Below are positions 41,816 through 61,961 of a stretch of DNA of 64,000 nucleotides, in pieces. The position numbers and the translations under genes are program-made. Origin of the DNA: Gautieria morchelliformis. Lineage: Eukaryota; Basidiomycota; Agaricomycetes; Gomphales; Gomphaceae. Location of the stretch: contig WHVA01000171.1 of assembly GCA_015179125.1 (NCBI GenBank), positions 124,001 through 188,000 of the forward strand, in the 5' to 3' direction. The first letter of the stretch is position 1. Each line of letters opens with the position of its first letter. The notes under the pieces were generated by a model. The model saw only the letters and a program-made list of their open reading frames with translations, did no database searches and was not told where the DNA came from.

Positions 41816-44800
41816 ATGTCATCTACGCAACAAGAACAACCAGTTGTTCATAGGACTCACTCAACAGGTCCAGTTCCTACCCCAGCACCACTTCTGAGGT
41901 GAACAGCTTCCGCCTCATTCCCTTTGCAAGACCCTGCTGAAAATATCATCCCTTTCTCTTGCTTGGTTGCCATGTCTGCATCTTGGCCTACACCACACCA
42001 TCTGGTCCCCAAGCACGCGTCACCACACCATTTTGATGTTCAACACCAGTTAACTCCATGCGAACAACACTTCTCACCTGAGCACCCACTTTCGGCAAGC
42101 ACCCCCATATCCGGTCACAGGCCCAGTGCTGATCCTTTATGCCACCTAATGGCCGTTAATTCACCTGGCAATCGACCACAGAACCCTAGCAGCTTTCAAC
42201 CACCTTATCCTTCTAGGCTCCCTTGGATCATCAGTGCCTCAGGATCCCGATTACAATTGGCCTTCACACAGCCCCACTTGCCACCAGCCTCACCAAGTCA
42301 TACTCTGAATCCTTTTCTCAATGTACACTACACCTAACATCCTCCATATATGTGTCCTACACCACCTCTCAATACTGGGCACATCACCCCTGTTCAAGCA
42401 GGATTTCGGGCTCACATGCCTGCTTCACACCAATCTTCATCTCATTCCCATCACTCACATCACTCTTTGCACAATTCACAGCCTCTTCGCAGTCCTCACC
42501 ATTTGGTACACAGTGACCACCTTCGAGCCGATTCCCAACAGGGCCTTCCTCTCCAGGCACCTTTAGTGGATCAGGGGGCATTACACTGCCCTTGCACTCG
42601 GACAACACCTTGGCTATGCTTTTAGGGGAATGCCTTACTACAATCTGAATGCTGCGCCCGTGCCACAATTCGGAGGTGCCCCTCCTCTATTCACAGGATA
42701 ACCTCACCCCTTCATGGGTCAACCACCCCTGCAACAACCTCCAGCACAGATTCCTGTCCTACCTGGTGGGCCTGCGCCTCCTCTATTCACAGGTAAACCA
42801 CCCCAACAACAACCTCCAGCAGAGATTCCTGCCCCACCCAGCAGGCTTGTGCCTCCTCCACCACCACCTTTCAGGCCACCTTTGCCCCAGGTTGAAGTAC
42901 CTCCAATTGGGCCTCCTGGACATCCTGGCCCACCTCTGTCTCCTCGTGGAGGACCTTGGCTGCAACCAGGATTCCCCTGGAACCCTTATTATCCCTTTCC
43001 TTTCGCCTACCCTCAGGTGGCTCCTGATGGTGATTCTCATGCTGCGAAACCTGACAAATTCACAGGAAAGGAGTCTCGCCTTCTCTGAACATTCATCACT
43101 AGTTGTGTTATGGTCTTCAACAACAAGCCCCAAAAGTGCCAGCACGAGCGACAATGAGTCTCCTATGCAGCATCCTACCTCAGCGACATTGCCTTGATTT
43201 GGTGGCAACCCTTTCTCATTCAGGTCCCAGATCCTCCCATTCCAAGTGACTGGCATACCTTTTTTGATGAGCTTAATCGTCTTTTCTGTCAGGCCAACAT
43301 CATATAGGTTTTGGAATTAATATGAGATTAATCAGAATAATGAATTCTGATTGCTCAAGGAGTAGGGTATCCTTTGTGCACCCCTGTGCCCGATGTATGT
43401 GTGAGCTGACTAAGCTCGGTGGAGCGAGCGCGTCACCACTTGGAGTAGGTCACGTGACCGAGTCTAGGAGAAAATAGGTGATAACAGAGGAACAAGGTGT
43501 CCAAAGCGTTAGCTTTTGGAACAGTATAGTGTAACCAGTTATAGTAGACTCTCAACAAAGAATTAGAGAACACTATCAAGAATTAAGCTCTGTAGCTATC
43601 AAACAAGTCTACAGGTACTTCAGGGGGTGAAACAGTGTTTTTCTGGATGTTTTGTTCGTACATTTATGGTATCTACTTATACTATAATAGTAGTGACTAC
43701 CAGTGTTCAAGATAATGAGTGAATGGGTCGGAATACTGTCCTTTGATAGGGGAAATGCTCCACAGGCTGCATACAGCTGTGGGGCAGGAACAATGATGGG
43801 GATACTTGTCCTACTGACAAGTATCTAAGTTGGGACCTTTGGAGCAGCATACAAATCCCCTTTCAACATGAAATATCATTCGTAATCAGTGAAGCTAGTC
43901 AGGGGAATAGAATGGAAAAGAATCTTGTGTCTCCTGTGCTGTGTGCTTACAGCAGCCTTGGCAGGGCATTTGCCATCTCTGTACCTCTCCCCTGAGGTAG
44001 CTATTCAGTATGTCCATAGATAGGACTATATACTGTGCTTTCCATCGCATCCGATGTCCCTGTATGGTACTATAAGTGCCATAGCAATATTTTCTTCTGA
44101 CCAGGGCCCAGGTGCCTGCTTTCCAGGGCAGGCACTGCTACTGGTGCATGGATAATTTCTCCCAGATAATAAATTCAGTTAGACGTTGTTTAGACCATGG
44201 AATGATGTGAGATAATTATCCCATTTATTCTAACAATAGGTGTCCTAACAAGCTATTCGCAAACTCAAGATGCTCAACACCCATCAATCACCACATGACC
44301 ACTTTTGCTGAGTTGTCCTCTTACGTTGAGTGGAATGATGCCACCCTTTATGACACTTTCTATAACAGCTTCACCGAGCATATCAAAGACCACATGCTCT
44401 CTTATGAACATCCTGCAACCCTCAATGATCTTAATGTCAGGCTCTTCACATCAACAATTGCTACTGGGAACACCAAGGTGAAAAGCAGACTACAACTTCC
44501 ATTTGTCTCCCTTCCTCTTCTGAGTCATCTTCCACACCTCGTGCTAATGCTCACTCCAGACCCCCTGCAGCGGCTAATCCTGGTGAACAGAAAGACCTCT
44601 CTGGTATCCTCGATGCCACTGGATGCCTCACTGAAGCCCAGAAAGAGCAACGAAAATCCAAAGGCCTTTGTCCATATTGCGGCAAAACCCCCACCCAGCA
44701 CACAAAGGGGTGCCGTTATCAGGAGCCTGCCTCACTTACTGGCAGGGATATCTTCACCCTCGAAGGTGATCCTCAGGTCACAACTCTCAATGAGGTCTGC

Positions 44801-44850
44801 AAAGATAGGGAAGACTCTCCTGAAGAAAACTAGTTTGCGATCCCTCTGTG
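41816..44850 (+). pseudogene. gag: Family B Gag, broken and interrupted
   Basis: The frame starts MSSTQQEQPVVHRTHSTGPV and soon hits TGA. A long Pro-rich region follows (PPLQQPPAQIPVLPGGPAPP, PPPPPPFRPPLPQVEVPPIG), then AAKPDKFTGKESRLL and FNNKPQKCQHERQ. Next is VSYAASYLSDIALIWWQPFL, the conserved part of this Gag type. A solo LTR (43309-44235) splits the capsid. After it come MTTFAELSSYVEWNDATLYD, TEHIKDHMLSYEHPATLNDL, DLSGILDATGCLTEAQKEQR and a CPYC-x6-H-x3-C knuckle. Several stops and frame changes make it non-functional. Intact relatives package element RNA in virus-like particles. Confidence 0.75.
43309..44235. mobile_element. Solo LTR, copia-like ends, TSD ATAGG
   Basis: ATAGG at 43304-43308 and 44236-44240 flanks a 927-bp segment. 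Its ends, TTTTGGAATTAATATGAGA and (inverted) TGTTAGAATAAATGGGATA, are clearly related and resemble the TGTTGGAATTAAT ends of mushroom Ty1/copia LTRs. A five-base duplication fits LTR integration. No internal coding frame. It disrupts the family B gag, so it is younger than that copy. Confidence 0.75.
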
Positions 44851-45524
44851 GTGTTAATGATGGGTCACTCTATTTCTTCGAACACCAATCCCATTCACTC
44901 TGTACCATCTGTTTATCTCTTTGCCCCTATTGGTTCCCATTCTGACTCATCTTTCATTGTCCATGTACACCTGCCTGGTCTCTCCAACTCCATTCCAGCT
45001 CTCATCAACTCTGGTGCCACTTTGAATTTCATTGACAGCTCATTCTCCTCCCGTCCTGGCTTCACCTGTACATCACTTCGTTCGCCAATTGCTCTCTGCC
45101 TTTTCGATGGAAAGCCAGCTACAGGCGGTTTCATTCATGAATATCTTGATACTAGTCTCACATTCAGCAACTCCTCTTTGCAGGACATTTCATTACTTAT
45201 CACAAATATACACCCTTTGGCCACTATCATTCTTGGGCTCCCTTGGCTTCACTCTACAAAACCCATCATCGATTGGGGTCCTCTCTCGATCACCTTTCCT
45301 TTTGGCACCACTTCCATACTACCACCTATGATGGTTGCCATGGCCTCCATGATGATTTCCCCCCTGGCTATCTTCGACAGCATTCCCGAACTCCACACTG
45401 CCTTGATGCTTTTGCCACTATCAGTTCCTGGTTCAAACTCGTCCTGGCCATCCTTGGGTTACATCCTGAACATGGCAACTGGACCACTCTCTTACATCCT
45501 GGTCCTTCCACTGGATGTCACTTC
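44848..45524 (+). pseudogene. pol: Family B protease region, truncated
   Basis: The frame reads FIVHVHLPGLSNSIPALINS, GATLNFIDSSFSSRPGFT, then ATIILGLPWLHSTKPIIDW, the retropepsin fold with its flap and hydrophobic exit motif (ILGLPWL). The active-site triad D-S-G reads N-S-G (codon AAC at 45007-45009), so catalysis should be lost. At 45525 the sequence passes directly into the 3' LTR of element A1, removing reverse transcriptase and everything beyond. Confidence 0.8.
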
Positions 45525-46223
45525 TGTTACGTATCGAGATTTCCACTAAGTCGGAACTGGAAAGGACAGCAGCTTCAACTTATAGGTTGCGCCCCCAATG
45601 AACTATCGTCCTAGGTATTTCGGAAATGAGCCGGAAGTTGGACAGTACTGGACCAGAGGTTTGGTCGGAACTTGAGTCGGAACTGAGGCGGAAGGCGGAA
45701 GACGGAAGACGGAAGGCTGAGAGAGAGACTGAGATCTTGCTAGACTCGCTGTGCTAAGAACAGGAGATGGAGCGAAGGAAATCAAGTATCGAAGGTGATT
45801 ATCTGATTGCAGATTAACAGACATACATGAGGGGGTTTTTATACAAAGCGCAGAGCAACAAGTAATGGTGTTGTACTAAGCAAATTCCGGAGGAAGCGGA
45901 AGTCGAGTACAATGTGTGGGAACTAACTAATTGGGAACAATGGGACTACAAGGGGGGTTCAGGGTAAGGTAGAACAATGGCAAAGAACAAGGGGTCGGGA
46001 AAACATATCTGACAACGAACTACAAGGGTGACCGGATATATGGTTTTGATGGATGGCGAGGTGGGTCCGGTGGGTCCGAGTAATAGAGTCGAAAGAACAA
46101 GGGAATGTACAAGGGGCGGAATGTCGGAAATGTCGGAGGGGCGGAACGTTGTGCGGAACTATTGGAGGGGCGGAAGGAGTGGCGGAACTGAGGGTCGGAA
46201 GTCGGAAATGAACGGTCGTAACA
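45525..46223 (-). repeat. Family A element A1, 3' LTR (699 bp)
   Basis: It runs TGTTACG...CGTAACA, with 7-bp inverted ends, and matches 52970-53620 and the A2 LTRs. On the element strand it is preceded by the purine tract AGAAGGGAGATAC (46224-46236). It is dense in CGGAA on the plus strand: about 18 copies in 45601-46270 by hand count. It is longer than the 5' LTR because of small repeat-rich insertions. Confidence 0.92.
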
Positions 46224-46346
46224 GTATCTCCCTTCTAAGGTCGAGCCCCGCGAGACCACAAGTCGGAATCACGTGACCTGTGAACAAATGCGTCGGAGTT
46301 TGAAAGATAGGCGGGAAGCAAGAACGCGTCTTCTGTTTAGTCCATC

Positions 46347-47676
46347 ATGAGCACTCCAGTCGACTTCTCCAAAATGACCAGTGCTGAGATGAAAGAACAC
46401 TTTGCTGACATGCTCGCGCAAAAGGAGTTGGCCGAAAAGCGCGAGGCCGAGGAAGCGGCGCGGAAGGAGAAAGAGCGTCTGGAGGAGGAGCGCAAAGAGA
46501 AAGAGCGCAAGGAACAGGAGCGTCTGGAACGGGAGCGGAAAGAGAAGGAGGAGCGTGACCGCAAACGTCGCGAGGAGGAATCGCGCGTCCGTGAAGAACA
46601 GCGGAAACGGGATGCGGTCAAAAAGGCTGCGGGAAACAAGGCCGTGGCGGAGAAAACGGAACAATCCCGGGTGAGTCGGAAAGGTTCTGAGTCTCATCCC
46701 GAGACTGACTAAAGAAACTTGGCAGAAAATAATCGTCGAATCCGATTCCGAACCGGAGTCGGAAGACACGGCGGAAAACACACCGTCTCCTGAAGGGAAG
46801 GGAAAACAACAGGAAGTAGTTCCTGTTGTGAACCTTGTGGCGGATCGGAAAAGGAGGGCGGACGAATTTCAACAGGCCAGGAAGAGCAAGATGGCCCGCA
46901 TTGTCGACCTCCGGGAGTTGGGGCCGGAGAATCCCGCGACCCGGAAACGGAAGACAAGGGACGGGGAAGAAGAAAAGGCGCCCTGCGACACATGCGAGGT
47001 GAAGGGGCTTGAGTGTATCTGGTCGGAAAATCCGCGGGAAACCGCTTGCGATCGGTGCCGTGACAAGAAGAGGCGGTGCGTCGTGGACGGTTGTTCCGCG
47101 AGGGTGGAGCGGAAGAGGCGGAAAGTCGAGACCGAGGGGCCAGAAACCCCAAAGTCAAAACCAAGGTCGAGCGGGAAAAAGGGCGCGGAAGGCTTTCTGG
47201 TGACCGGGCAGTCGGAAACAGCGGTGTTAAACCGCTTCACCATGGCGTCGCCCCTACTCGATATCGCCGAGTCCTTGAGGGGGATCCGGAAAACGCAGCG
47301 CGGGATCCGGAACATTTTGCTGGAAATGGCAGAGGTTCAACAGCACCAAGTGTTGTCATTCCAAAATCAGATGACTGTAATGTCAACGGTTTTGGAGCAG
47401 CTGAAGCGGGAGTTCCGGTGGCGGAACGATTTGTTCCGGGACCAACTGGGGTTGCGAGAGGAGCAGGAGAATGAGGCGGGAACGAGGGTGGAGACAGAGC
47501 TGGTGAGTGTGCCGATGGGGCATGCGGAAGAGGGTGCGGAAGCGGAGAACGAGGAAGAGGCGGAAACAATGAGGGAACGGTTAGACACGGAGTTGGTGGT
47601 CGTCGAGGTAGGAGGGTCGGAAAAGGATCCGGAAACGGAAAGGGAGGTCGAGGCGGAGACCATGAGGGAGGAGTAG
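46347..47676 (+). CDS. Antisense accessory gene of A1: coiled coil plus Zn2Cys6-like cluster
   Basis: Opposite to gag-pol and between pol and the 3' LTR. Exon 1 (46347-46670, 108 codons) and exon 2 (46726-47676, stop included) are joined by a 55-bp phase-0 intron (GTGAGT, GACTGACTAA branch-like site, GGCAG). The product has 424 residues. Residues about 20-90 are a highly charged coiled coil (KEKERLEEERKEKERKEQER). An acidic segment (SDSEPESEDTAE) is followed at 46984-47079 by CDTC-EVKGLEC-x10-CDRC-RDKKRRC, i.e. C-x2-C-x6-C-x10-C-x2-C-x6-C. This is the spacing of fungal Zn2Cys6 DNA-binding domains, with the basic run after it (RVERKRRKVE). A helical C-terminal region (LEQLKREFRWRNDLFRDQLG) could dimerise. 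Intact, although A1 gag and pol are not. Its promoter would lie near or in the LTR read backwards. Function is inferred only. Confidence 0.8.
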
Positions 47677-47809
47677 GGTGTCGAGGTGACTTGTAGTATT
47701 TTCTTGAAGTGTCGGAAATTAGTATATTGGAATAATAATCGGATTTTCTTTTGAATTATGACTTGAGAAATGTAAGCAAGCCGTGGTGTCGGAATGAGGT
47801 CGGAATTGA

Positions 47810-50800
47810 CTAGGGCGCGGAAATGGGGCCAGGCTTGTCAGGATATGACTTGTGGAAATCAGAGACGAGGTCAGAGGCGTGGTCAAGTTCCGTGGCGGAA
47901 ATCCACGAAGTCTCTTCGTCAGTGTTTTCATAGCCTGCCCACTTGACTAGGTACTGGAGTTGGCAGCGGTATCTTCTGTTGAGCTTGGAGTTGAGAATTT
48001 CCGAAATCTCATATTCCGGTTCTCCGTCGATGACGACTGGCGGAGGTGGAGGTTGTTCTCGATTCGGAATTGTATTCGGAACTGCTGGCTCAAGCATAGA
48101 GACATGGAATACCGGATGTACTGCGCACATATTGTCAGGAAGTCTGAGGGTGAAAGAACGACTGCCGGCCTTAGCGATGATCTCGTAAGGACCGAGGTAT
48201 TTCTCAGAGAGTTTCTTCGAGGGACGAGTGGTGCGGAAGTTTTCCGCTTTGACAAAGGCTTTGTCGCCAATCTCGAATGCCGGTTGCGGAAGGCGTTTCC
48301 GATCAGCGGAAGTTTGGTATCTCTTCTGGGCAGCGGTAATGTTCTCTCGGAGGTGCTGGTGAAGGTCGTCAAGTTCCACAACGAAATCTCGGGCTCTTGC
48401 AGAGGCGAGGTCGCGTTCGGGGTGGATGGCGAGATTCGGGTGGTAGCCCTTGTTGGCGTAAAAGGGTGAAATTCCGGTGGTAGCGGAAGGCGCATTGTTG
48501 TAGGCAAATTCCGCGAGCGGAAGAAGGTCGGACCAATTGCTGTGTTGGTAGTTGCAATAGACGCGGAGATACTGCTCAAGGGTCTGATTAGTACGTTCCG
48601 TTTGTCCGTCTCCTTCGGGGTGATAACCGGAAGTGAAGTGGAGTTTCATGTCGAGAGCCTTGCCGAGTGTGCGGAAAAAGGAGGACACGAATTCGGATCC
48701 ACGGTCGGAAGTGACATGGGAAGGGATTCCGTGCTTGGAAAAGACGTGGAGCACAAAGAGCTGTGCGAGCTGGGCGGAAGTTATGGTGTCGTAGGTCGGA
48801 ATAAAGATGGACTGCTTTGTGAGGCGGTCAACGATCACTAGAATGGTATCATAGCCGGATGACTTAGGAAGTTTCTCAATGAAATCCATGGATATTGAAT
48901 TCCACGGTTGTTCCGGGATCGGAAGTTGCTTCAGGAGGCCGTAGGGTTTGTGACGTTGAGGCTTGGCTCGCATACAGGTGGTGCATGACTTGCAGTAGTC
49001 TTGGACCATCGTGCGGAGGAGAGGCCAAGTATAGGTACGTCAGATTATGTCGAGGGTCTTGTTCTGGCCTTGGTGTCCTGAGAGCGGATGATCGTGGCTT
49101 TGCTGAAGCACGCGAAGTCGTAGATCGTTGGTATCCGGAACGTAAATCCGGGACTTTTACCGGAGAAATCCGTCGGAATCGAGGGACCATCCAGGACTGG
49201 TGGGGTCATCGAGGTGGGTTGCGGAGGTGGGGTCGGAACGGAGTGCGGAACGGATGTCGGAATGGAGAGACTCGGTGTCCATAATAATTGAGGCGCGGAG
49301 TAGCGGAAACTGCAATGCTGTGGCACGCAGGGACGATGCCAGTTGTCAGTGGAGAATACTGGGCGGAAATTGTGCGGATTAACGCTGGCATAGTCGCTAC
49401 TTCCCTCTTTTGGGTAGACGTCCCAACGTCTAGTGAGCGCGTCGGGTTTTGCTCCGAGCTTTCCGGGGCGGAAACGGATCACCATGTTGAACTGTGAGAG
49501 GTATTCAGACCAGCGGACTTGACGGCGAGTCAAAATCTTAGTGGTTGCAAAATACTCAAGGTTCTTATGATCCGTTACAACGTCGATCGGATAAGTTGGA
49601 CCTTCGAGGTAATGTCTCCAGATTTTGAAGGCTTCGAAAATCGCAAGTAGTTCCTTATCGTGGACGTCGTAGTTGAGTTCCGGGGCGGAAAAGGTGCGGG
49701 AATGAAAGGCGATCGGATGAATTTCTCCGTCGTCGGGTGAAATGATGGAAAGAATGGCGGCTAGCGCGTAGTCAGAAGCGTCGGTTTCGAGTACAAGTTG
49801 GGCATCAGGAATCCAGAAACCGAGTATGGGAGCCGTGGTGAAGGCCGATTTGAGGGCTTCAAATGCGGAACGGCATTCCGGTGTGAAATTCCATGGGGCA
49901 CCCTTCCTGGTGAGACGCGTGAGCGGAACAGTAATGTCGGAAAAATTATAAATGAAACGCCGGTAAAAGTTGGCGAAGCCAAGGAAAGACTGCACATCCT
50001 TAACACGTCGGGGTTCCGGCCATTCTTGAATTGCCTTGACCTTGTCCTCTGCCATGGTAAGACCTGTTGGAGAGAGGATGTAGCCGAGGTATTCGACCGT
50101 GTCGCGATGCCATTCGCATTTCTCTGCTTTTGCGTAGAGATGGTGTTTGCGTAGGCGGCGGAGTACTTCGCGGACATGTTCCCGATGTTTTTCCGGTGTG
50201 TCGGAATAGATGAGGATGTCGTCAATGTAGACTAGAACGCATACGTCGAGGAGGTCGGAAAATACGTCGTTCATGAATCGCTGAAAAGCGGCGGGAGCGT
50301 TGGTTAGACCAAAAGGCATGACAGTCCACTCAAAGGCACCGTAGCGGGTGCGGAAGGTGGTTTTCCACTCGTCACCTTCCCGGATGCGGACAAGGTGATA
50401 AGCGTGCCGGAGGTCAATTTTGGTGTAGATCTTCGCCCTGCGGGGAGTGTCGAGTAAGTCGGAAATGCGCGGAAGCGGATATTTGTCCTTTTTAGTGAGG
50501 GCATTGAGTCCGCGGAAATCGACGCAGAGGCGGAGAGATCCATCCTTCTTCTTGACGAAGAGGACCGGAGCGCCGTGCGGAGACAGCGAAGGGCGGATAA
50601 AGCCCATGTTGAGATGTTCATCGACGAACTCTCGGAGAGTTAGGAGTTCACTTTGCGAAAGGGAGTAGATCGGTCCAAGGGGCGGAGATGCTCCTTCTTC
50701 CAAATCTATCTTCAAGTCGTAAGGTCGATGTTCAGCAGGTTTGTCGGCTTTGGCCTTATTGAACACGTCCGGGAAGTCACGATATTCTTCCGGAACTGAG

Positions 50801-51521
50801 CTCATGTCGACCGGAGCGGAAGTCGAGGCGGAACGAGCCTTGACTGAAGCCGAATCGGAGAGGTGAAGCTGGAAAACGGTCGTATCATCTTGCCGTTGCA
50901 ATACGCGGAAAGCGGTGGCGGAAACGAGCGCAATTCGAGGAGCTTCGAGGGGCGGAGGTGCTAAAGCGGGACCGGAGTGCGGAACTGAATCCACGAGCGG
51001 AGTTGCAGAAGAGGCCTGAGCCATCTTTGCGGAGACGTCGGAATAGACGGAAGTTGATCCGGGGTACGGAACTGTATTTGACCCAATGCCCAGTTAATCG
51101 ACGGATTATATCGGGTGAGCCAATTGTGTCCTAGTACAACGGAACAGCTAGCATCTAGCGGAGTAACGTAAAACGTAACTTCATGGTTGTCCCCAGTAGC
51201 GAAACGGATAGACAGATCCACAACTTGGGAAATTCCCGTGTTGGAAGACCCGTCGAAAAGGCGGAGCGGAATAGTCGGAATGTTGCGGGTCGGAAGTTTA
51301 TGTTTCAAAACAAAGTCGGAATCGAGGAAACAATGAGTCGAACCGGAGTCGACCAATGCTGTAAACGGGGGTGCGGAAATGGTGTCGGAAGTGAGCGGAA
51401 CAGAGAGAGAGTCGGAGGACGAAAGAGCGGATGCGTTGAGTTTAACCTCGTTTGTCGCACGAATGGGGTCAACACAGCCCTCAGCTCGTGCGGAGGCCGG
51501 AGGACTGCTGACTATTTTTTT
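47810..51521 (-). pseudogene. pol: A1 Pol (PR-RT-RNaseH-IN-chromodomain), two breaks
   Basis: Read from the A7 slip site near 51515. Protease: VDSGSTHCFLDSDFVLKHKL and VVLGHNWLTRYNPSINW. Reverse transcriptase: GFIRPSLSPHGAPVLFVKKK, LRLCVDFRGLNALT, TVMPFGLTNAPAAFQRFMND and VYIDDILIYSD (catalytic YIDD). RNase H: LVLETDASDYALAAILS. Integrase: QDYCKSCTTCMRAK (half of HHCC), ISMDFIEKLPKSSGYDTILV, HVTSDRGSEFVSSF and YHPEGDGQTERTNQTLEQYL (DDE). C-terminal chromodomain: CQLQYLVKWAGYENTDEETS. A two-base deletion near 49345 and TGA at 49040-49042 (CGA in A2) interrupt it. The stop at 47810 leaves 133 bp to the convergent antisense gene. Confidence 0.9.
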
Positions 51522-52936
51522 GAATCCGCAGCGGGAACCGCTTCGGATTTCTCTTCCGTCTTTGCTGCGCGGCCCTTGGCCTTAGCAGCGGAGGCGGAAG
51601 CGCGAGTGCAGTCGCGAGCGACGTGACCTCCTTTGCCGCAGAAGAGGCAAAGGTTGTTGTCCATGCGACGCTGGCGTTCTACAGGGGTTAGTTTTCCGTC
51701 CTTCCCAAGTTTGTCGGAAAGATCCGGGGTGCTCTTCCGGGCGTTGGTGTTAGAACCAGAGGCCTGGTTGTTCCGAGGGGTGTTGTTGTTGTTCCGGTTG
51801 CCGGAGTTGGATCCGGAACTGTTGTTGTTGTTGTTTCCGGAGTTGGTGTTTCCGGAATTGGTCTTCTTCTTGTCTTTATCAGACTTCTTGTCGGAAGACT
51901 TGTCGTTCTTGCTCTGGGCGGAGTTTCACGAGCAATCTCGGAGTGTCTTTCCCAGTAGCGCGAATCGATGGATTGGGCGAGGTTGCGGAGGTCGGTAAGG
52001 GTGGCGGGTTTTCCGACGCGGGCAATTTCATCCTTGATGCGGGATGGCAAGCCCATGTAAAACTGGCGTCGGAGTGCGGCTTCTCCCCATTGGACTCGAG
52101 GAGCGAGCTGCTGAAACGTGACGATATATTTAGCTATCTTATGAGTGTCTTTCATGCGAAGCTTATCGAGTTCATTTTCCGCATCGGCTTCCATATCAAA
52201 TGGTCCGAAGTTGCTGCGGAGTTCGGAAATGAAATTGGGGTAATCGTCGGCCCAGTCGACGAGAGCGAACGGATCCATGAGGGCGGGTTCGAAATAGTCG
52301 AGCGCCGTGCCTCGGAGATAGGAAAGGGCATAATTGACCTTTCGTTCGTCGTCGGGAAAGGCGTCGGGACGATCACGGAAATTGAGTTGAAGCTGAACCA
52401 GAAATGGCTGGAGCTTCTTGGGGTCGGAACCGTCGAACTGATCTGGTTCGCGGACCTTTGTCTTGGGGCGTGGTGGTGCTTGGGCCGGGCGCTGGAGTTG
52501 TCCGGCTAGCATGGCGATGGCTTGTGCAAGATCCGGAACTGGCGCGGGCGGAACTGGGTTGGCGGGAATCTGAGGTGGAATTGGAGGTGGAGGACCGCCT
52601 GGGGACCGCCGGGTGGGCCGCCATGAGGGCCGCCTGGAGGGCCGCCTGGAGGTGGTCCTGGTGGAGGTGGTGGTGGTGGAGCTGGGCGTCGGAATGACGC
52701 TGCTGTTTGTTCGCCGCTGCTACTCGTCGAATTCCCGTCGTAGTCGGGATTGTCGTCGGGATTAGCGTCGGGAACTTCTTCGAACGTTGCGGAAAAGCAT
52801 CGGAAAGCTCATCGTCGGCACGAGAGCTGCTGGAGGGTTCCGCGTGCCTTGGTGCTGCGGATCTAAGACTGCCAAAATAAGAGAGAGCTTCGACAGCTCC
52901 TGCTCGAGCTGAAGTAGCTGTGGTACGAGGAGGCAT
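51512..52936 (-). pseudogene. gag: A1 Gag, frameshifted
   Basis: Starts MPPRTTATSARAGAVEALSY, as in A2. One-base losses near 52795 (after DDELSDA), around 52610 in the Pro/Gly tract and near 51928 shift the frame. The capsid part between them (KVREPDQFDGSDPKKLQPFL, ALDYFEPALMDPFALVDWAD, FYMGLPSRIKDEIARVGKPA) and the knuckle CLFCGKGGHVARDC-type segment remain. The end is GAT TCA AAA AAA TAG, the same A7-TAG arrangement as in A2. Confidence 0.88.
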
Positions 52937-52956
52937 AGTGATAGTTATCGGGTGGG

Positions 52957-52967
52957 AATCAGATAAT
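52957..52967 (-). promoter_or_regulatory. A1 self-primer binding site
   Basis: On the element strand ATTATCTGATT begins two bases (GT) after the 5' LTR. It is perfectly complementary to AATCAGATAAT in the LTR (53223-53233), the inferred RNA 5' end. Confidence 0.8.
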
Positions 52968-52969
52968 AC

Positions 52970-53620
52970 TGTTACGTATCGAGATTTCCACTAAGTCGGA
53001 ACTGGAAAGGACAGCGGCTTCAACTTATAGGTTGCGCCCCCAATGAACTATCGTCCTAGGTATTTCGGAAATGAGTCGGAAGTTGGAAAGTACTGACCAA
53101 GGTTTGGTCGGAACTTGAGTCGGAACTGAGGCGGAAAGCGGAAGACGGAGAGACTGAGATCTTGCTAGACTCGCTGTGCTAAGAACAGGAGATGGAGCGA
53201 AGGAAATCAAGTATCGAAGGTGATTATCTGATTGCAGAATAACAGACATACATGAGGGGGTTTTTATACAAAGCGCAGAGCAACAAGTAATGGTGTTGTA
53301 CTAAGCAAATTCCGGAGGAAGCGGAAGTCGAGTACAATGTGTGGGAACTAATAATTGGGAACAATGGGACTACAAGGGGGGTTCAGGGTAAGGTAGAACA
53401 ATGGCAAAGAACAAGGGGTCGGGAAAACATATCTGACAACGAACTACAAGGGTGACCGGATATATGGTTTTGATGGATGGCGAGGTGGGTCCGGTGGGTC
53501 CGAGTAATAGCGTTGAAAGAACAAGGGAAATGTACAAGGGGCGGAATGTCGGAAATGTCGGAGGGGCGGAACGTTGTGGCGGAACTGAGGGTCAGAAGTC
53601 GGAAATGAACGGTCGTAACA
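52970..53620 (-). repeat. A1 5' LTR (651 bp)
   Basis: TGTTACG...CGTAACA ends. It contains the element-strand TATAAAA box near 53273 and the RNA-start sequence at 53223-53233. It abuts element A2 exactly at 53620/53621. Confidence 0.92.
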
Positions 53621-54176
53621 CCATTGTTCTATTCCCTTGTTCTTTCGACTCTATTACTCGGACCCACCAGACCCACCTCACCGTTCATCAAGACCATATG
53701 TCCGGCCCTCCTTGTGTTTCGTTGTCAGATATGTTTTCTCGACCCCTTGTTCTTTGCCATTGTTTTACCTTACCCTGAACCCCCCTTGTAGTCCCATTGT
53801 TCCCAATTAGTTAGTTCCCACGCATTGTCTACTCGACTTCCGCTCCCCCTGGAATTTGCTTAGTACCATCCCATTACCTGTTGTCTCAGCTCTTTGTATA
53901 AAAGCCTGTCATGTATGTCTGTTATTCTGCAATCAGATAATCGCCTTCGATACTTGATTTCTTTTGCTCCATCTCCTGTTCTTAGCACAGCGAGTCTAGC
54001 AAGACCTCCGTCTCTCCACCTTCCGCCTCAAGTTCCGACCAACCTTCAGTTCAGTACTTTCCGACTTCCGACTCCTTTCCGAAATACTTAGGACGATAGT
54101 TCATTGGGGGCGCAACCTATAAGTTGAAGCCGCTGTCCTTTCCATTCCAACTTAGCGGAAATCTCGATATGTAACA
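53621..54176 (+). repeat. A2 5' LTR, first about 79 bp missing
   Basis: Matches the A2 3' LTR from its position 61391 onward and ends GATATGTAACA. The missing start is replaced by the outer edge of the A1 5' LTR in opposite orientation. Confidence 0.9.
53897..53941 (+). promoter_or_regulatory. A2 LTR core promoter and inferred RNA start
   Basis: TATAAAA at 53897-53903. AATCAGATAAT at 53931-53941 starts 34 bp after the first T of the TATA box, and its exact complement forms the primer site at 54179-54189. The start is inferred from this complementarity. Confidence 0.7.
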
Positions 54177-54178
54177 GT

Positions 54179-54189
54179 ATTATCTGATT
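54179..54189 (+). promoter_or_regulatory. A2 self-primer binding site
   Basis: ATTATCTGATT, two bases after the LTR end. An 11-of-11 complement of 53931-53941. No tRNA-like TGG start is present. Confidence 0.8.
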
Positions 54190-54209
54190 CCCACCCGATA
54201 ACTATCACT

Positions 54210-55607
54210 ATGCCTCCTCGTACCACAGCTACTTCAGCTCGAGCAGGAGCTGTCGAAGCTCTCTCTTATTTTGGCAGTCTTAGGTCCGCAGCACCAAGGC
54301 ATGCGGAACCCTCCGGCAGCTCTCGTGCCGACGATGAGCTCTCCGACGCGATTCTGCAATGCTTCGAAGAAGTTCCCGATGCTAATCCCTATGACAATCC
54401 TGACTATGATGGGAATTCTATGAGTAGCAGCGGCGAACAAACAGCAGCGTCATTTCGACGCCCAGCTCCACCACCACCACCCCCACCAGGACCACCCCCA
54501 GGCGGCCCTCATGGCGGCCCACCCAGCGGTCCCCCAGGCGGTCCTCCCGGCGGTCCTCCACCTCCAATCCCACCTCAAATTCCCACCAACCCAGTTCCAC
54601 AAGCGCCAGTTCCGGATCTTGCACAAGCTATTGCCATGCTAGCCGGCCAACTTCAGCGCCCGGCCCAAGCACCGCCACGCCCCAAGACCAAAGTCCGTGA
54701 ACCATATCAGTTCGACGGTTCCGACCCCAAGAAGCTCCAGCCATTTCTGGTCCAGCTTCAACTCAACTTCCACAATCGTCCCGACGCCTTTCCCGACGAC
54801 GAACGAAAGGTCAATTACGCCCTTTCCTATCTCCAAGGCATGGCGCTCGACTACTTCGAACCCGCCCTCATGGATCCGTTCGCTCTCGTCGACTGGGCCG
54901 ACGATTACCACAACTTCGTTTCCGAACTACACAGCAACTTCAGACCATTTGACATGGAAGCCGATGCGGAAAATGAACTCGATAAGCTTCGTATGAAAGA
55001 CACTCATAAGATAGCTAAATATATCGTCACATTCCAGCAGCTCACTCCTCGAGTCCAATGGGGAGAAGCCGCACTCCAATGCCAGTTTTACATGGGCTTG
55101 CCATCCTGGATCAAGGATGAAATTGCCCGTGTCGGAAAACCCGCCACCCTTACCGACCTTCGCAACCTTGCCCAATCCATTGATTCGCGCTACTGGGAAA
55201 GACATTCCGAGATCGCTCGAGAAACTTCCGCCCAGAGCAAGAACGACAAGTCTTCCAACAAGAAGTCTGACAAAGACAAGAAGAAGACTAATTCCGGAAA
55301 CAACAGCTCCGGAAACAACAACAACAACAACAACTCCACCCCTCGCAACAACCAGGCCTCTGGTTCCAACACCAACACCTGGAAGAGCACTCTGGACCTT
55401 TCCGACAAACTTGGGAAGGATGGAAAACTAACCCCTGTAGAACGCCAGCGTCGCATGGACAACAACCTTTGCCTTTTCTGTGGCAAAGGTGGTCACGTCG
55501 CTTGCGATTGCACCCGAGCTTCCGCTTCTGCTGCTAAGGCCAAGGGCCGTGCGGCGAAGACGGAAGAGAAATCCGAAGCGGCTCCCGCTACAGATGCAAA
55601 AAAATAG
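54210..55607 (+). CDS. gag: A2 Gag, intact (465 aa)
   Basis: Open from ATG (34 bp after the LTR) to TAG. It has an N-terminal region of unknown fold and a Pro/Gly-rich linker (PPPPPPPGPPPGGPHGGPPS). The capsid domain follows (KVREPYQFDGSDPKKLQPFL, DERKVNYALSYLQGMALDYF, FYMGLPSWIKDEIARVGKPA, LRNLAQSIDSRYWERHSEIA). Then come a Lys/Asn/Ser-rich basic stretch, KLTPVERQRRMDNNLCLFCG and the zinc knuckle C-LF-C-GKGG-H-VACD-C (C-x2-C-x4-H-x4-C). Gag forms the virus-like particle and binds element RNA through the knuckle. The last codons are GCA AAA AAA TAG, with pol in the -1 frame. This is the only uninterrupted structural ORF of family A in the window. Confidence 0.92.
   Translation: MPPRTTATSARAGAVEALSYFGSLRSAAPRHAEPSGSSRADDELSDAILQCFEEVPDANPYDNPDYDGNSMSSSGEQTAASFRRPAPPPPPPPGPPPGGPHGGPPSGPPGGPPGGPPPPIPPQIPTNPVPQAPVPDLAQAIAMLAGQLQRPAQAPPRPKTKVREPYQFDGSDPKKLQPFLVQLQLNFHNRPDAFPDDERKVNYALSYLQGMALDYFEPALMDPFALVDWADDYHNFVSELHSNFRPFDMEADAENELDKLRMKDTHKIAKYIVTFQQLTPRVQWGEAALQCQFYMGLPSWIKDEIARVGKPATLTDLRNLAQSIDSRYWERHSEIARETSAQSKNDKSSNKKSDKDKKKTNSGNNSSGNNNNNNNSTPRNNQASGSNTNTWKSTLDLSDKLGKDGKLTPVERQRRMDNNLCLFCGKGGHVACDCTRASASAAKAKGRAAKTEEKSEAAPATDAKK
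55598..55604 (+). promoter_or_regulatory. Predicted -1 ribosomal frameshift site (A7)
   Basis: Seven A residues directly before the gag TAG. Gag codons start at positions divisible by three. Pol is open in the -1 phase from inside this run (AAA AAA ATA GTC AGC). The same A7-TAG is present in A1 near 51512-51521. Confidence 0.7.
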
Positions 55608-58600
55608 TCAGCAGTCCTCCGGCCTCCGCACGAGCTGAGGGCTGTGTTGACCCCATTCGTGCGACAAACAAGGTTAAACTCAACGTATCCGCTCTTTCGT
55701 CCTCCGACTCCCTCTCTGTTCCGCTCACTTCCGACACCATTTCCGTACCCCCGTTTACAGCATTGATCGACTCCGGTTCGACTCATTGTTTCCTCAATTC
55801 CGACTTTGTTTTGAAACATAAACTTCCGACCCGCAACATTCCGACTATTCCGCTCCGCCTTTTCGATGGGTCTTCCAACACGGCAATTTCCCAAGTCATG
55901 GACCTGTCTATCCGTTTTGCTACTGGGGACAACCATGAAGTTACGTTTTATGTTACTCGGCTAGATGCTAGCTGTTCCGTTGTACTAGGACACAATTGGC
56001 TCACCCGATATAATCCGTCGATTAACTGGGCATTGGGTCAAATACAGTTCCGTACCCCAGATCAACTTCCGTCTATTCTGATGTCATCCGCAAAGGTGGT
56101 TCAGGCCTCTTCTGCAACTCCGCTTGTGGATTCAGTTCCGCACTCCGGTCCCACTTTAGCACCTCCGCCCCTCGAAGCTCCTCGAATTGTGCTTGTTTCC
56201 ACCACCGCTTTCCGCGTATTGCAATGGCAAGAAGATACGACCATTTTCCAGCTTCATCTTTCCGATTCGGCTTCAGTCAAGGCTCGTTCCGCCTCGACTT
56301 CCGCTCCCATCGACATGGGCTCAGTTCCGGAAGAATATCGTGACTTCCCGGACGTGTTCAATAAGGCCAAAGCCGATAAACCTGCTGAACATCGACCTTA
56401 CAATATGAAGATAGATTTGGAAGAAGCATCTCCACCCCTTGGACCGATCTACTCCCTTTCACAAAGTGGACTCCAGACTCTCCGAGAGTTCGTCGATGAA
56501 CATCTCAACATGGGCTTTATCCGCCCCTCGCTGTCTCCGCACGGCGCTCCGGTCCTTTTCGTCAAAAAGAAGGATGGATCTCTCCGCCTCTGCGTCGATT
56601 TCTGCAGACTCAATGCCCTCACCAAGAAGGACAAATATCCGCTTCCACGCATTTCCAATCTCCTCGACACTCCCCGCAGGGTGAAGATCTACACCAAAAT
56701 CAACCTTCGGCATGCTTATCACCTTGTCCGCATCCGGGAAGGTGACGAGTGGAAAACCACTTTCCACACCTGCTACGGTGCTTTTGAGTGGGTTGTCATG
56801 CCTTTGGCCTAACCAATGCTCCCGCTGCTTTTCAGCGCTTTATGAACAACATATTCTCCGACCTCCTTGACGTATGCGTTCTAGTCTACATTGACGACAT
56901 CCTCATTTATTCCGACACACCGGAGAAACATCGGGAACATGTCCGCGAAGTACTCCGCTGGCTACGCAAACATCATCTCTACGCAAAAGCAGAGAAATGC
57001 GAATGGCATCGCGACACGGTTGAATACCTCGGCTTCATCCTCTCCCCTATGGGTCTTACCATGGCAGAGGACAAAGTCAAGGCAATTCAGGAATGGCCGG
57101 AACCCCGACGTGTTAAGGATGTGCAGTCTTTCCTCGGCTTCGCCAACTTTTACCGGCGTTTCATTTATAATTTTTCCGACATTACTGTTCCGCTCACTCA
57201 TCTCACCAGGAAGGGTGCCCCATGGAATTTCACTCCGGAATGCCGTTCCGCATTTGAAGCCCTCAAATCGGCCTTCACTACGGCTCCCATACTCGGTTTC
57301 TGGATTTCCTGATGCCCAACTTGTACTTGAAACTGACGCTTCCGACTATGCACTAGCCGCAATCCTTTCCATCATTTCCCCCAACAACGGAGAAATTCAT
57401 CCGATCGCCTTTCATTCCCACACCTTTTCCACCCCGGAACTCAACTACGACGTCCACGATAAGGAACTACTTGCAATCTTCGAAGCCTTCAAAATTTGGC
57501 AACACTACCTCGAAGGTCCAACCTATCTGACCGACGTTGTAACGGATCATAAAAACCTTGAGTATTTCGCGACTACTAAGATTTTGACTTGCCATCAAGT
57601 CCGCTGGTCTGAATATCTCTCACAGTTTAACATGGTGATCCGCTTCCGCCCCGGAAAGCTCGGAGCAAAACCCGATGTGCTCACTAGACGTTGGGACGTC
57701 TACCCAAAAGAGGGAAGTAGCGACTATGCCAGTGTTAATCTGCACAATTTCCGCCCAGTATTCTCCACTGAGCAACTGGCATCGTCCCTGCGTGCCACAG
57801 CATTGCAGTTTCCGCTACTCCACGCCTCAATCATTATGGACACTGAGTCTCTCCATTCCGACATCCGTTCCGCACTTCATTCCGCCCCCATCTCCGCAAC
57901 CCACCTCGATGACCCAACCAGTCCTGGATGGTCCCTCGATTCCGACGGATTTCTACCGTACAAGTCCCAGATTTACGTTCCGGATACCAACGATCTACGA
58001 CTTTGCATGCTCCAGCAAAGCCACGATCACCCGCTCTCAGGACACCAAGGCCAGAACAAAACCCTCGACATAATCCGACATACCTACACTTGGCCCCTTC
58101 TCTGCATGATGGTCCAAGACTATTGCAAGTCATGCACCACCTGTATGCGTGCCAAGCCCCAACATCACAAACCCTACGGCCTTCTGAAACAACTTCCAAT
58201 CCTGGAACAACCATGGAATTCAATATCCATGGATTTCATTGAGAAACTTCCTAAGTCATCTGGCTATGATACCATTCTAGTGATCGTTGACCGCCTTACA
58301 AAGCAGTCCATCTTCATTCCCACCTACGACACCATCACTTCCACCCAGCTCACACAACTCTTTGTGCTCCACGTCTTTTCCAAGCACGGAATTCCTTCCC
58401 ATGTGACTTCCGACCGTGGATCAGAATTCGTGTCCTCCTTTTTCCACACGCTCGGCAAGGCTCTCGACATGAAACTCCACTTCACTTCTGGTTATCATCC
58501 CGAAGGAGACGGACAAACGGAACGTACTAATCAGACCCTTGAGCAGTATCTCCGCGTCTATTGCAACTACCAACACAGCAATTGGTCCGACCTCCTTCTG

Positions 58601-59308
58601 CTCACGAAATTTGCTTACAACAATGCGCCTTCCACCACCACCGGAATCTCACCCTTTTATGCCAACAAGGGCTACCACCCGAATCTCACCATCCACCCTG
58701 AACGCGACCTCGCCTCTGCAAGAGCCCGAGATTTCGTTGTGGAACTTGACGACCTTCACCAGCACCTCCAAGAGATCATATCCGCTGCCCAGAAGAGATA
58801 CCAAACTTCCGCCGATCGGAAACATCTTCCGCAACCGGCATTCGAGATAGGCGACAAAGTCTTTGTCAAAGCTGAAAACTTCTGCACCACTCGCCCCTTG
58901 AAGAAGCTCTCTGACAAATACCTTGGTCCTTACAAGATCATCGCTAAGGCCGGCAGTCATTCTTTCACTCTCAGACTTCCTGACAATATGCGCGCAGTAC
59001 ATCTGGTATTCCACATCTCCATGCTTGAGCCAGCAGTTCCGAATACAATTCTGAATCGAGAACAACCTCTGCCTCCACCAGTCATCGTCGACGGAGAACT
59101 GGAATACAAGATCTTGGAGATTCTCAACTCAAAGCTCGACAGAGGATACCGCTGCCAACTCCAGTACCTAGTCAAGTGGGCAGGCTATGAAAACACTGAC
59201 GAAGAGACCTCGTGGATTTCCACCATGGAACTAGACCACACCTCTGACCTCGTCTCTGATGTTCACAAGTCATATCCTGATAAACCTGGCCCCATTTCCG
59301 CGCCTTAG
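55598..59308 (+). pseudogene. pol: A2 Pol (PR-RT-RNaseH-IN-chromodomain), two single-base indels
   Basis: Protease D-S-G reads LIDSGSTHCFLNSDF. The RT has LRLCVDFCRLNALTKKDKYP and VYIDDILIYSD. RNase H begins LVLETDASDYALAAILSIIS. The integrase has HDHPLSGHQGQN with CKSCTTCMRAK (HHCC zinc site), SMDFIEKLPKSSGYDTILVI, SDRGSEFVSSF and GYHPEGDGQTERTNQ (DDE). The chromodomain is QLQYLVKWAGYENTDEETSW. One T is missing at about 56804 (MPFGLTN becomes MPLA-stop) and one T is extra at about 57306 (before DAQLVLETD), leaving the intervening RT core in another frame. From 57307 to the stop at 59308 the frame is clean. The breaks are few, so inactivation looks recent. Confidence 0.9.
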
Positions 59309-59365
59309 TCAATTCCGACCTTATTTCTGATACCCATTGTTTTCTTACAGTTCTCAAGTCATATG

Positions 59366-61192
59366 TCAAATATTAATCTTCCGATACGCTATTTTCCGAC
59401 ACTTCAAGAAATTAATTACAAGACCCTTCGACACGTACTCCTCCCTCATCATTTCCCCCTCGCCCTCGCCCTCGTTCTCCGCTTCCGGACCCTCTTCCGC
59501 ATGCCCTACCTCCACGTTCACCAGCTCGGTCTCCACCCTCGTTTCCGCCCTTTCGCTCGGACCCGCTTCCGCCCCATTCTCCTGCTCCTGCATCCGCAGC
59601 TCCATTCGTTCCCGGAGCATGTTGTTCCGCCACTGGTACTCCCGCTTAAACTGCTCTAACACCCCCAACACGATGGTCATCTGGTTCTGGAGCGACAACA
59701 ATTGTTGAGCCTGAACCACCGCCATCTCCGCAAGAAGGTTCCGGATCCCGCGTTGGGTTTTCCGGATACCCCTCAACGAATCGGCAATGTCGAACAACGG
59801 CGACACCATGCTGAAGCGGTTGAGTACCGCTGTGTCCGAATTTCCGGTCACTGGAAATCCTTCCGCCGCCTTTTTGCCGCTCGGTCCCGGTTTCGACTTA
59901 GGGGTTTTGGGCCCCTCGGTCTCGACCTTTCGCCTTTTCCGCTCTACCCTTGTGGAACACCCATCCACGACACAGCGCCTTTTCTTGTCGCGGCACCGTT
60001 CACAGGCCGTTTCCCGCGGATTTTCTGACCACACACATTCCAAGCCCTTGACCTCGCACGTGTCGCAAGGGGGTTTCTCCTCTTCACCATCCCTCGTTTT
60101 CCGTTTCCGCGTTGCAGGATTCTCCGGTCCCAATTCCCACAAATCTACCATCCTAACCATAGATCATGCAGGATCGACCCATTAGACCAAGAGTCCATGC
60201 AGGGTAACATGTATACAGGTCCCAAGGCGTGTTTTCTTACATAGGTACCTACAGAGATTTGACTTTACAAGCACACGCAAGCTTCGAAACTATTTTAACG
60301 GAGAACCCAATTAAGAAATTATACTCCGGTGAACAATCAGAATCAGTATTGGTACAGGAAGTGTAGCAATAGAGATTTAACTGAACACGTGTAGTTCTCA
60401 GATTGTGCAATACTTTGTGAGGTCAAAGAATGTTATTAGGCGTCCAAGGGTCCAGATACTTTAAGGGGGAAAGCTATCTAGAGTCTTAGGACCGCGGGTC
60501 GAGTGAATTAAAGACAACAATAATCCCCAAGACGTGAAAAGATAGTTCTGTGCTTGAACTCTTCCTCAGTTCTACCCACCCGAGCAAAATCAGTATCATT
60601 AGGACAAGGTACGAGAACTATCACATGACAGAGGGACAGTCGGTCTCAGAGTATATGTTCTTCCTGGCCTGCTGAAATTCGTCTGCCCTCCATTTCCGCT
60701 CCGCCACAAGGTTCAGCACGGGGACGACGTCCCTTTGCTTCCCCTTCCCCTCAGGGGACGGCGTGCTCTCCGCGGTGCTTTCCGATTCCACCTCGGATTC
60801 GGATTCAACAATTTTCTGGCAGTTTTCCTGTCAGCCTCGGAATTACGCACACAACATTTCCGACTCACCCGTTGCTTTCCCGCCTTTTCCGCCGCGGCCT
60901 TGTCCTCTGCAGCTTTTTTGGCCGCGTCCCGTTTCCGCTGTTCCTCGCGGAGGCGCGACTCCTCCTCGCGGCGTTTACGGTCCCGTTCCTCCTTCTCCTT
61001 CCACTCCTGGTCCCGACGCTCCTGTTCCTTGTGCTCCTTCTCCCTGCGCTCCTCCTCCAGCCGTTCCTTCTCTTTCCATGCAGCTTCCTCGGCCGCTTGC
61101 TTTTCCGCCAGCTTCTTCTGTGCAAGAAGATCGTCGAAATATTTCTGCATTTCGGCACTGGACATCTTTGAGAGATCAGGTTGGGAGTTCAT
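59366..61192 (-). pseudogene. A2 copy of the antisense zinc-cluster gene, interrupted
   Basis: Same position and opposite-strand orientation as in A1. Exon 1 starts at 61192 (MNSQPDLSKMSSAEMQKYFD) with the charged coiled coil. A GTGAGT donor and exon 2 (STAESTPSPEGKGKQRDVVP) follow. At FQQARK the gene is split by about 0.5 kb of foreign DNA. It resumes at about 60160 with LWELGPENPATRKRKTRDGE and the cluster at 60067-59972, again C-x2-C-x6-C-x10-C-x2-C-x6-C. The original stop TAG has become TAC, extending the tail by about 20 residues. All six cysteines, the spacing and the basic tail are identical in kind to A1, although the gene is broken. Confidence 0.82.
60157..60675. mobile_element. Insertion splitting the A2 antisense gene
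   Basis: The first about 95 bp (60165-60251) match family B LTR sequence (compare 41045-41130: GCAGGATC, GTTTTCTTAC, TAGGTACCT). The remainder is unassigned AT-rich DNA. I could not fix a target-site duplication. Confidence 0.6.
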
Positions 61193-61311
61193 GGTGGCTA
61201 GGATAAAGACGTGTTTGCTTCCCGCCTATCTTTTGAACTCCGACGCGTTTGTTCACAGGTCACATGATCCGACCTGTGGTCTCTCGGGGCTCGACCTTAG
61301 AAGGGAGATGC

Positions 61312-61961
61312 TGTTACGACCGTTCATTTCCGACTTCTGACATTCAGTTCCGCAACACTTTCTGCCCCTCCAATATTTCCGACATTCCGCCCATTGTTCT
61401 ATTCCCTTGTTCTTTCGACTCTATTACTCGGACCCACCAGACCCACCTCACCGTTCATCAAGACCATATGTCCGGCCCTCCTTGTGTTTCGTTGTCAGAT
61501 ATGTTTTCCCGACCCCTTGTTCTTTGCCATTGTTTTACCTTACCCTGAACCCCCCTTGTAGTCCCATTGTTCCCAATTAGTTAGTTCCCACGCATTGTCT
61601 ACTCGACTTCCGCTTCCCCCGGAATTTGCTTAGTACCATCCCATTACCTGTTGTCTCAGCTCTTTGTATAAAAGCCTGTCATGTATGTCTGTTATTCTGC
61701 AATCAGATAATCGCCTTCGATACTTGATTTCTTTTGCTCCATCTCCTGTTCTTAGCACAGTGAGTCTAGCAAGACCTCCGTCTCTCTGCCTTCCGTCTTC
61801 CGCCTTCCGCCTCAAGTTCCAACCAACCTTCAGTTCAGTACTTTCCGACTTCCGACTCCTTTCCGAAATACTTAGGACGATAGTTCATTGGGGGTGCAAC
61901 CTATAAGTTGAAGCCGCTGTCCTTTCCAGTTCCGACTTAGCGGAAATCTCGATACGTAACA
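61312..61961 (+). repeat. A2 3' LTR (650 bp)
   Basis: TGTTACGACC...GATACGTAACA, preceded by the purine tract AGAAGGGAGATGC (61299-61311). The TATA box and AATCAGATAAT are conserved here as in the 5' LTR. Differences from the 5' LTR include a duplicated TTCCGTCTTCCGCC-like stretch. Confidence 0.92.

Follow-up and report, generated by a model that had tools for sequence, protein, structure and literature searches.

A spliced antisense gene and a dense KCGGAA motif in a Ty3/gypsy chromovirus of Gautieria morchelliformis point to a possible element-encoded, zinc-cluster-like regulator

A family of Ty3/gypsy retrotransposons in the basidiomycete Gautieria morchelliformis, denoted here as family A, carries beside its 3' LTR, on the strand opposite to gag-pol, a spliced gene for a zinc-cluster-like protein, and the same elements are covered over their whole length by a short motif built on CGGAA. 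We propose that family A carries its own sequence-specific regulator, an activator or anti-silencer that would recognise its own element through the motif in its preferred form, KCGGAA, a reading to which we give a probability slightly better than even (about 0.52). The motif, the strongest clue to function, was absent from the preliminary description of this DNA. All coordinates refer to the window, that is, the whole stretch of 64,000 nucleotides that was analysed (contig WHVA01000171.1, positions 124,001 to 188,000 of the forward strand).

The window contains two copies of the family, A1 (45525..53620, 8.1 kb, with gag-pol on the minus strand) and A2 (53621..61961, plus strand), the latter with a truncated 5' LTR. 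A1 is bounded by paired LTRs with TG...CA ends, the 3' LTR at 45525..46223 (TGTTACG...CGTAACA) and the 5' LTR at 52970..53620, both on the minus strand. Its pol (47810..51093, minus strand) is split over two frames, one region (49045-51093) holding RT and RNase H (Pfam RVT_1, 9.5e-41; RT_RNaseH, 9.1e-32) and the other (47810-49039) holding integrase, SH3 and chromodomain (rve, 2e-8; SH3_Tf2-1, 2.9e-18; Chromo, 1.2e-7). This is the chromovirus order, with RT-RNase H before the integrase and the chromodomain at the integrase C-terminus, and a gag of the Ty3 type was recognised in the A2 gag frame (54156-55607, plus strand; Ty3_capsid, 2.3e-10), the gag of A1 being split. Family A is a Ty3/gypsy chromovirus, and its RT has at least 110 matches at 94-100% identity (110 scored out of 6394 candidates). 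The two copies meet head to head at 53621, where the 5' LTR of A2 is truncated; no target-site duplication was established there, and the join may be a product of recombination. The frames flanking the pair (44211-45549 and 62149-62897) look by eye like other retroelement remains, and the 1-kb bins 43, 44, 62 and 63 have 0-1 CGGAA or TTCCG. Farther away, a 135-bp unit repeated in tandem about 19 times at 4229-7023 encodes 45-residue repeats (SLHREALELxPAPHPxRSTSLNNIA; minus strand, several frames) that are TPR-like by eye, and a set of split helicase-like frames at 37446-38822, with a Pfam PIF1 match at 4.9e-7 in the frame that was scanned (37446-38288), is possibly a Helitron remnant.

The antisense gene of A1 is found on the plus strand, between the last stop of pol at 47810 and the 3' LTR. 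It consists of exon 1 (46347..46670, 108 aa), a phase-0 intron of 55 bp (46671..46725, GTGAGT...TTGGCAG) and exon 2 (46726..47676, 316 aa and the stop), yielding a spliced product of 424 aa; the preliminary description had proposed this architecture and strand, and the coordinates were re-derived identically. The gene and pol converge without overlap, and dual coding was rejected on this ground. Exon 1 encodes a conserved N-terminus, M-S-T-P-V-D-F-S-K-M-T/S-S-A-E-M-K, followed by a highly charged E/K/R-rich stretch. Exon 2 encodes, in this order, an acidic segment, a DLRELGPENP block, the zinc cluster, a basic linker, a long helix and an acidic C-terminus. The cluster (46984..47094, plus strand) has its six Cys spaced C-x2-C-x6-C-x10-C-x2-C-x6-C, just as had first been read in A1, and is followed by a seventh conserved Cys within CVVDGC. 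An AlphaFold model of 209 residues placed a helix at 126-208, with block pLDDT values of 88-97 over residues 141-200; the long helix after the cluster is predicted confidently, while the cluster itself is confident in neither of two models (block pLDDT below 50 in one and about 57-63 in the other), and Foldseek fold searches with the models gave nothing significant. The leader between the 3' LTR and the antisense ATG (46224..46346, plus strand) is alike in the 12 copies viewed, nine of which contain the palindrome TCACGTGA, located at 46269 in A1, and it is the probable promoter region of the antisense gene.

The inheritance of this gene was assessed across the genome. At least 155 matches to exon 2 are present in the 122-Mb assembly (126 of 722 candidates scored, some copies giving two matches), and 42 copies were read, namely A1, A2 and 40 fetched ones, the latter made up of the 20 next best DNA matches and 20 picked by hand for diversity and mostly for few stops. 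Of the 42, 28 have a spliced frame that is intact (383-424 aa, GTGAGT donor, [CT]AG acceptor) and 14, A2 included, do not, a proportion that, in a non-random sample, gives no estimate of the intact fraction in the genome. One of the 28, L036, owes its frame to a non-homologous and doubtful splice and proved unusable as a reference, which leaves 27 clean frames; it is nonetheless counted in the 28-copy dN/dS and motif figures given here. The introns of the 28 copies measure 51-57 bp and fall into classes of 11, 10 and 7 modulo 3, so that an unspliced reading could not keep the frame, and the six Cys together with the seventh are retained in 27 of the 28 intact frames.

The median dN/dS of the gene was 0.17 (Nei-Gojobori, 360 of 378 pairs, 18 pairs with dS up to 0.02 being dropped), remained 0.17 without L036 (333 of 351 pairs) and was 0.18 among 12 distinct copies alone (66 pairs). 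In comparison, four wrong-frame controls yielded 1.2-2.0; the fifth, which shares its wobble position with the gene, yielded 0.32. By region, the lowest value, 0.06, was that of the Cys cluster (residues 191-235), followed by the acidic part (0.14), the charged exon 1 (0.16), residues 236-355 (0.16-0.18) and the C-terminus (0.43). These observations support a spliced, inherited and constrained gene under purifying selection, and a chance open frame was rejected in view of both the dN/dS and the conservation of the splice frame. The preliminary description had held the gene to be an inherited part of the family rather than chance and had named a dN/dS near 1 as a result that would count against it; the first claim is borne out and the value is far lower. 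It had also presented A2 as a second copy with all six Cys, which holds for the Cys (frame 59366-60163), but the gene of A2 (59366..61225, minus strand) is broken: its exon-1 and zinc-cluster stretches lie in separate frames, about 0.5 kb of extra DNA separates the exon-1 and exon-2 matches, and the search retrieved no spliced frame. As regards relatives outside this genome, none was recovered from a collection of 5.8 billion proteins, either with the single protein (1699 candidates) or with a 13-member alignment (E up to 1, 7999 candidates scored), nor from IMG/VR, absences that, in collections of uncertain fungal content, say little.

The cluster was compared with zinc clusters of the Gal4/LAC9 type. 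The PF00172 family allows the spacing C-x2-C-x6-C-x(5-12)-C-x2-C-x6-8-C, to which 27 of the 28 intact frames conform. In the Pfam scan, Zn_clus was the sole match of the A1 protein, at 19.6 bits against a curated cut-off of 21 (with a query carrying one wrong residue at the splice junction); exon 2 alone reached 17.7 bits, and 11 of 13 family members matched at E up to 1, the best at 1.7e-4, so that formal membership in PF00172 is not reached. In the alignment, stretch 73-102 of exon 2 is matched by positions 7-35 of the 39 in the profile, so that the second Cys half of the profile falls on the first half of the protein. In PF00172, a basic half is followed by a CxxCxxxGxxC half; here, the order appears to be reversed. 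A swapped order scored better in 14 of 14 distinct family A pairs, whereas the canonical order was better in all five host clusters compared (five of 12 fetched stretches, the other seven lacking a clean six-Cys match, and a further five of the 17 listed host zinc-cluster domains lying outside the fetched control set). The signal stems from the basic second half (CxxCRxKKRRC); the first half hardly discriminates. The single match of the cluster alone among PDB sequences was the zinc-cluster DNA-binding domain of LAC9, at a non-significant E of 1.9; it runs crosswise in both halves, each of which alone is far from significant, and a PDB profile search gave only a V-ATP synthase match (E 0.28).

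The domain is thus zinc-cluster-like, with its halves apparently in reverse order relative to Gal4/LAC9 and the basic half second. It shares with that type the six Cys at the same spacing, a basic half, CDRCRDKKRRC, that resembles the CDACRKKKWKC of LAC9, and a helical segment after the cluster; it differs in the apparently reversed halves, in the seventh conserved Cys, in a score below the Pfam cut-off and in being encoded inside a retrotransposon. By analogy, the basic second half would be the one contacting DNA. The initial assignment to the Gal4 family consequently stands for the spacing, but the half-motifs appear in the opposite order, and the profile search that had been suggested with it fell short of the cut-off. 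CGG is the classic half-site of zinc-cluster proteins, and sites of the CGG type would constitute a further likeness, for which the KCGGAA carpet of the element is an indirect counterpart.

This carpet is best appreciated by counting. A1 contains 122 CGGAA on the plus strand, which is the strand of the antisense gene, and 32 TTCCG, compared with 19.9 and 9.8 expected from dinucleotide shuffles, with both LTRs included, and TTCCG, the motif in the element sense, is the most over-represented 5-mer of A1 by z-score (24.6). A2 has 81 and 19 against 15.1 and 7.8 in dinucleotide shuffles. Window positions 1-45400, in contrast, stand at background (33 and 26 versus 38 and 35), and within the window CGGAA is dense only in A1 and A2, with 0-3 per kb per strand elsewhere. 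Six 2.5-kb pieces of other integrase-bearing elements were all at background (1.2-2.0 per kb, both strands together), and their top 5-mers reached z-scores of 2.5-4.4 versus 6.6-13.8 in six family A pieces; the six controls were picked by hand from 150 listed matches, and three of them (L051, L053 and L054), which have top words in common, may be related. The carpet is thus specific to family A with respect to window 1-45400 and the six control pieces.

Within A1, the z-score in the element sense is at least 6.3 in eight of nine parts tested, the 123-bp leader having one site (z 1.8). The preferred form is KCGGAA (GCGGAA, 55 versus 5.9; TCGGAA, 47 versus 5.8), ACGGAA and CCGGAA being only two- to threefold enriched. 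Weaker variants, CGGAG (48 versus 19.3) and CGGAT, are also enriched and changes inside CGG are not, which leaves CGGA as the core. The pattern extends into coding sequence. In the pol of A1 the motif exceeds synonymous-codon shuffles (27 versus 9.3 and 15 versus 4.6), and all 28 antisense frames lie above the synonymous expectation, with a median z of 3.9 and a minimum of 1.1; the excess is weak in one orientation of the A2 gag frame (8 versus 3.6, z 2.6) and in the reverse orientation of the RT frame (6 versus 3.1, z 1.9). Base composition or GC skew was rejected as the cause by both kinds of shuffle. Individual sites turn over, as two of 43 columns are kept in at least 90% of the 28 copies, and each antisense frame has 10-25 sites.

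The motif is densest in the LTRs. The 3' LTR of A1 has 18 plus-strand CGGAA against 1.7-1.8 expected, and its 5' LTR, which differs from it in the length of the CGGAA array, has 13. In the 3' LTR, cluster 1 (45621..45714, plus strand) comprises eight sites, at 45621, 45632, 45666, 45678, 45689, 45696, 45703 and 45710, and cluster 2 (46117..46207, plus strand) another eight, starting at 46117-46203; the sense TATA box separates the two clusters, and cluster 2 lies 140-230 bp upstream from the ATG of the antisense gene. This layout was recurrent, since 12 of 12 LTRs (10 fetched, plus A1 and A2; for L058, in which no LTR end was found, 660 bp were taken) had 9-18 sites versus 1.1-1.9 expected, mostly grouped in two clusters, one to each side of a TATAAAA box. 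The arrays show steps of 7, 11 and 12 bp. Among direct repeats, 12 bp is the spacing in excess (12 pairs, counted over both A1 LTRs, which are copies of each other), ahead of 11 bp (6), 7 bp (5) and all others up to 40 bp (4 or fewer). Where sites present in at least four of the LTRs of A1, A2 and L055-L064 were lost other than through a gap, 28 of 38 cases read TGGAA or CAGAA (a further 23 were gaps). Such changes are the mark of CpG decay, which suggests that these elements undergo CpG methylation in the host.

A further property of the gene emerged from its comparison with RT in 11 copies with an ungapped, full-length RT (copies not aligning with A1 over all 371 residues were dropped), RT itself having a dN/dS of 0.10 (60 pairs). 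Relative to A1, dS was 0.012 in RT and 1.09 in the antisense gene for L034 (L034/L077 being C428), 0.12 and 1.0 for L032 and L033, and 0.04-0.05 and 0.2 for L018, L024, L027 and L028; no such gap was found for L010, L011, L013 and L015. Along the alignment of A1 with C428, identity is 90-100% in the LTR, falls to 69-89% in the gene and returns to 97-98% from about 47523; C719 shows a similar fall without the sharp return. The longer C-terminus of A1 ends like the L034 type, and A1 itself therefore looks recombinant. From these sequence comparisons, the antisense gene behaves as a cassette, or module, that recombines between elements.

These observations could be integrated in the following model. 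The antisense gene would be transcribed, probably, from the region adjoining the 3' LTR, and its product would be a zinc-cluster protein whose acidic segment is accompanied by a long helix of a kind that could form a coiled coil, dimeric or oligomeric. The cluster, with its halves reversed, would recognise KCGGAA, which the element offers in two clusters flanking the LTR TATA box and, at lower density, throughout its length, mostly in one orientation. The element would then be recognised by the density of its sites, with many molecules of the protein coating it, and coating would raise its transcription, the protein acting as an activator, and most likely by preventing silencing by the host.

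VANDALs are Mutator-like DNA transposons, and their VANC proteins contain no zinc cluster. In the Arabidopsis pairs VANC21/VANDAL21 and VANC6/VANDAL6, an element-encoded protein is matched by one short motif enriched in the element, the targets of VANC21 being dense, in one orientation and in tandem (PMC5735166; PMC10398659). As in those reports, the family A motif is dense, mostly of one orientation (122 versus 32 by strand), partly arranged in tandem repeats of changing length, and rare in other elements, being at background in window 1-45400 and in the six pieces of other elements. According to the two reports, VANC motifs are mainly non-coding, whereas those of family A also occupy pol and the regulator gene, and binding and demethylation are proven for VANC, whereas family A is known from sequence alone. 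Family A belongs to a different element class, and the likeness, which would be convergent, concerns only the way of working. The full version of the analogy, in which an antisense-encoded zinc-cluster protein of a new, half-swapped type would coat the element through more than 100 KCGGAA sites, some of them at synonymous positions of pol and of the regulator gene itself, and would shield it from host CpG methylation and silencing while the regulator gene recombines as a module, is advanced tentatively, as we judge it less probable than the general proposal and somewhat below even odds.

The alternative that best survives is that the protein does bind KCGGAA and represses, either to limit copy number or as an antagonist of the sense promoter. 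HTLV-1 HBZ is the product of a spliced antisense gene that starts at the 3' LTR and encodes a coiled-coil regulator; it and the copy-number control of Ty1 are precedents for antisense products acting to restrain the element that encodes them, and sites flanking the sense TATA box could serve to block as well as to activate. An acidic segment is, however, more typical of activators, and the antisense gene is under strong purifying selection in a family whose RT matches are numerous and alike, two points that weigh against repression. Competition would also be expected to eliminate a factor that limits its own element, an argument found in PMC5408684 as well; none of these points is decisive. 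Repression thus seems unlikely to us. The parallel with HBZ as a gene is close in what is observed or predicted here, a spliced antisense gene by the 3' LTR of an LTR retroelement with a putative coiled-coil regulator as its product, but HBZ is a bZIP protein of a human retrovirus without a site carpet, and no sequence relation is claimed.

Several observations count against a self-regulator, namely the Pfam score below the cut-off, the non-significance of each half of the LAC9 match, the lack of a confident cluster in either model and of any significant fold match, the presence of the motif in coding regions and its weak excess in places. The strand bias of the motif, about 4:1 (122:32), does so too, since it would also suit a signal acting in RNA or in reverse transcription (sense UUCCG as an element of packaging, of Gag nucleocapsid binding or of RNA stability) unrelated to the antisense protein, and the similar spread of sites through coding and non-coding parts agrees with this. 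However, the sites reach their highest density in the LTRs, to either side of the TATA box, and part of them would therefore lie outside the RNA, the reverse orientation is enriched as well (32 versus 9.8), and the CGGA core is a half-site of the zinc-cluster type in an element that encodes a zinc-cluster-like protein. We consider an RNA signal rather unlikely. It is improbable that a host zinc-cluster factor binds the motif and that the antisense protein does other work, for instance Gag-like or in nuclear import: the host does have 17 canonical zinc-cluster domain matches, but a motif found in pol and throughout 8 kb exceeds the need of a borrowed enhancer, and within the antisense protein it is the Cys cluster that is most strongly constrained. 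Finally, a motif spread by descent as a by-product of mutation or repeat expansion (GGAA/CGGAA slippage), next to an ordinary captured host gene, is very improbable, for although the LTR arrays have 7-, 11- and 12-bp steps and the A1 LTRs are unequal in length, slippage does not easily make dispersed pol sites in excess of synonymous shuffles, one-base changes within CGG are not enriched, and genes with dS near 1 retain their number of sites although the positions change.

Returning to the proposed self-recognising regulator, extra genes beyond gag and pol have precedents in the antisense or additional ORFs of plant Ty3/gypsy elements, among which we know of none that combines a zinc cluster with a carpet of a matching motif. 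The ORF3s of LTR elements in bdelloid rotifers are another likeness of this kind; some are exonuclease- or esterase-like, and they show no significant departure from neutrality (PMC5408684). The main text of a review of LTR retrotransposons in fungi (PMC3248453) and that of a study of Laccaria bicolor elements (PMC3411680) contain neither 'zinc' nor 'antisense'. Among the open-access papers listed by literature searches, nothing relevant appeared on antisense or additional ORFs together with zinc clusters in fungal LTR elements, although a Morchella genome paper (PMC7014384) contains the words of one such search, and nothing in that text contradicts the initial claim that no fungal zinc-cluster example has been described.

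To our knowledge, there is essentially one worked-out case, that of VANC, in which an element distinguishes itself from the rest of the genome and counters silencing. If confirmed, a zinc cluster with its halves reversed would give a textbook DNA-binding domain an unusual layout. If the proposal is true, family A would offer a simple test system, in which a single protein and a single 6-bp site come with many naturally occurring site variants, since lost sites mostly read TGGAA or CAGAA. It would also add an independent second case, from a different kingdom, element class and protein fold, which would show that encoding a binder while carpeting oneself with its site is a general strategy.
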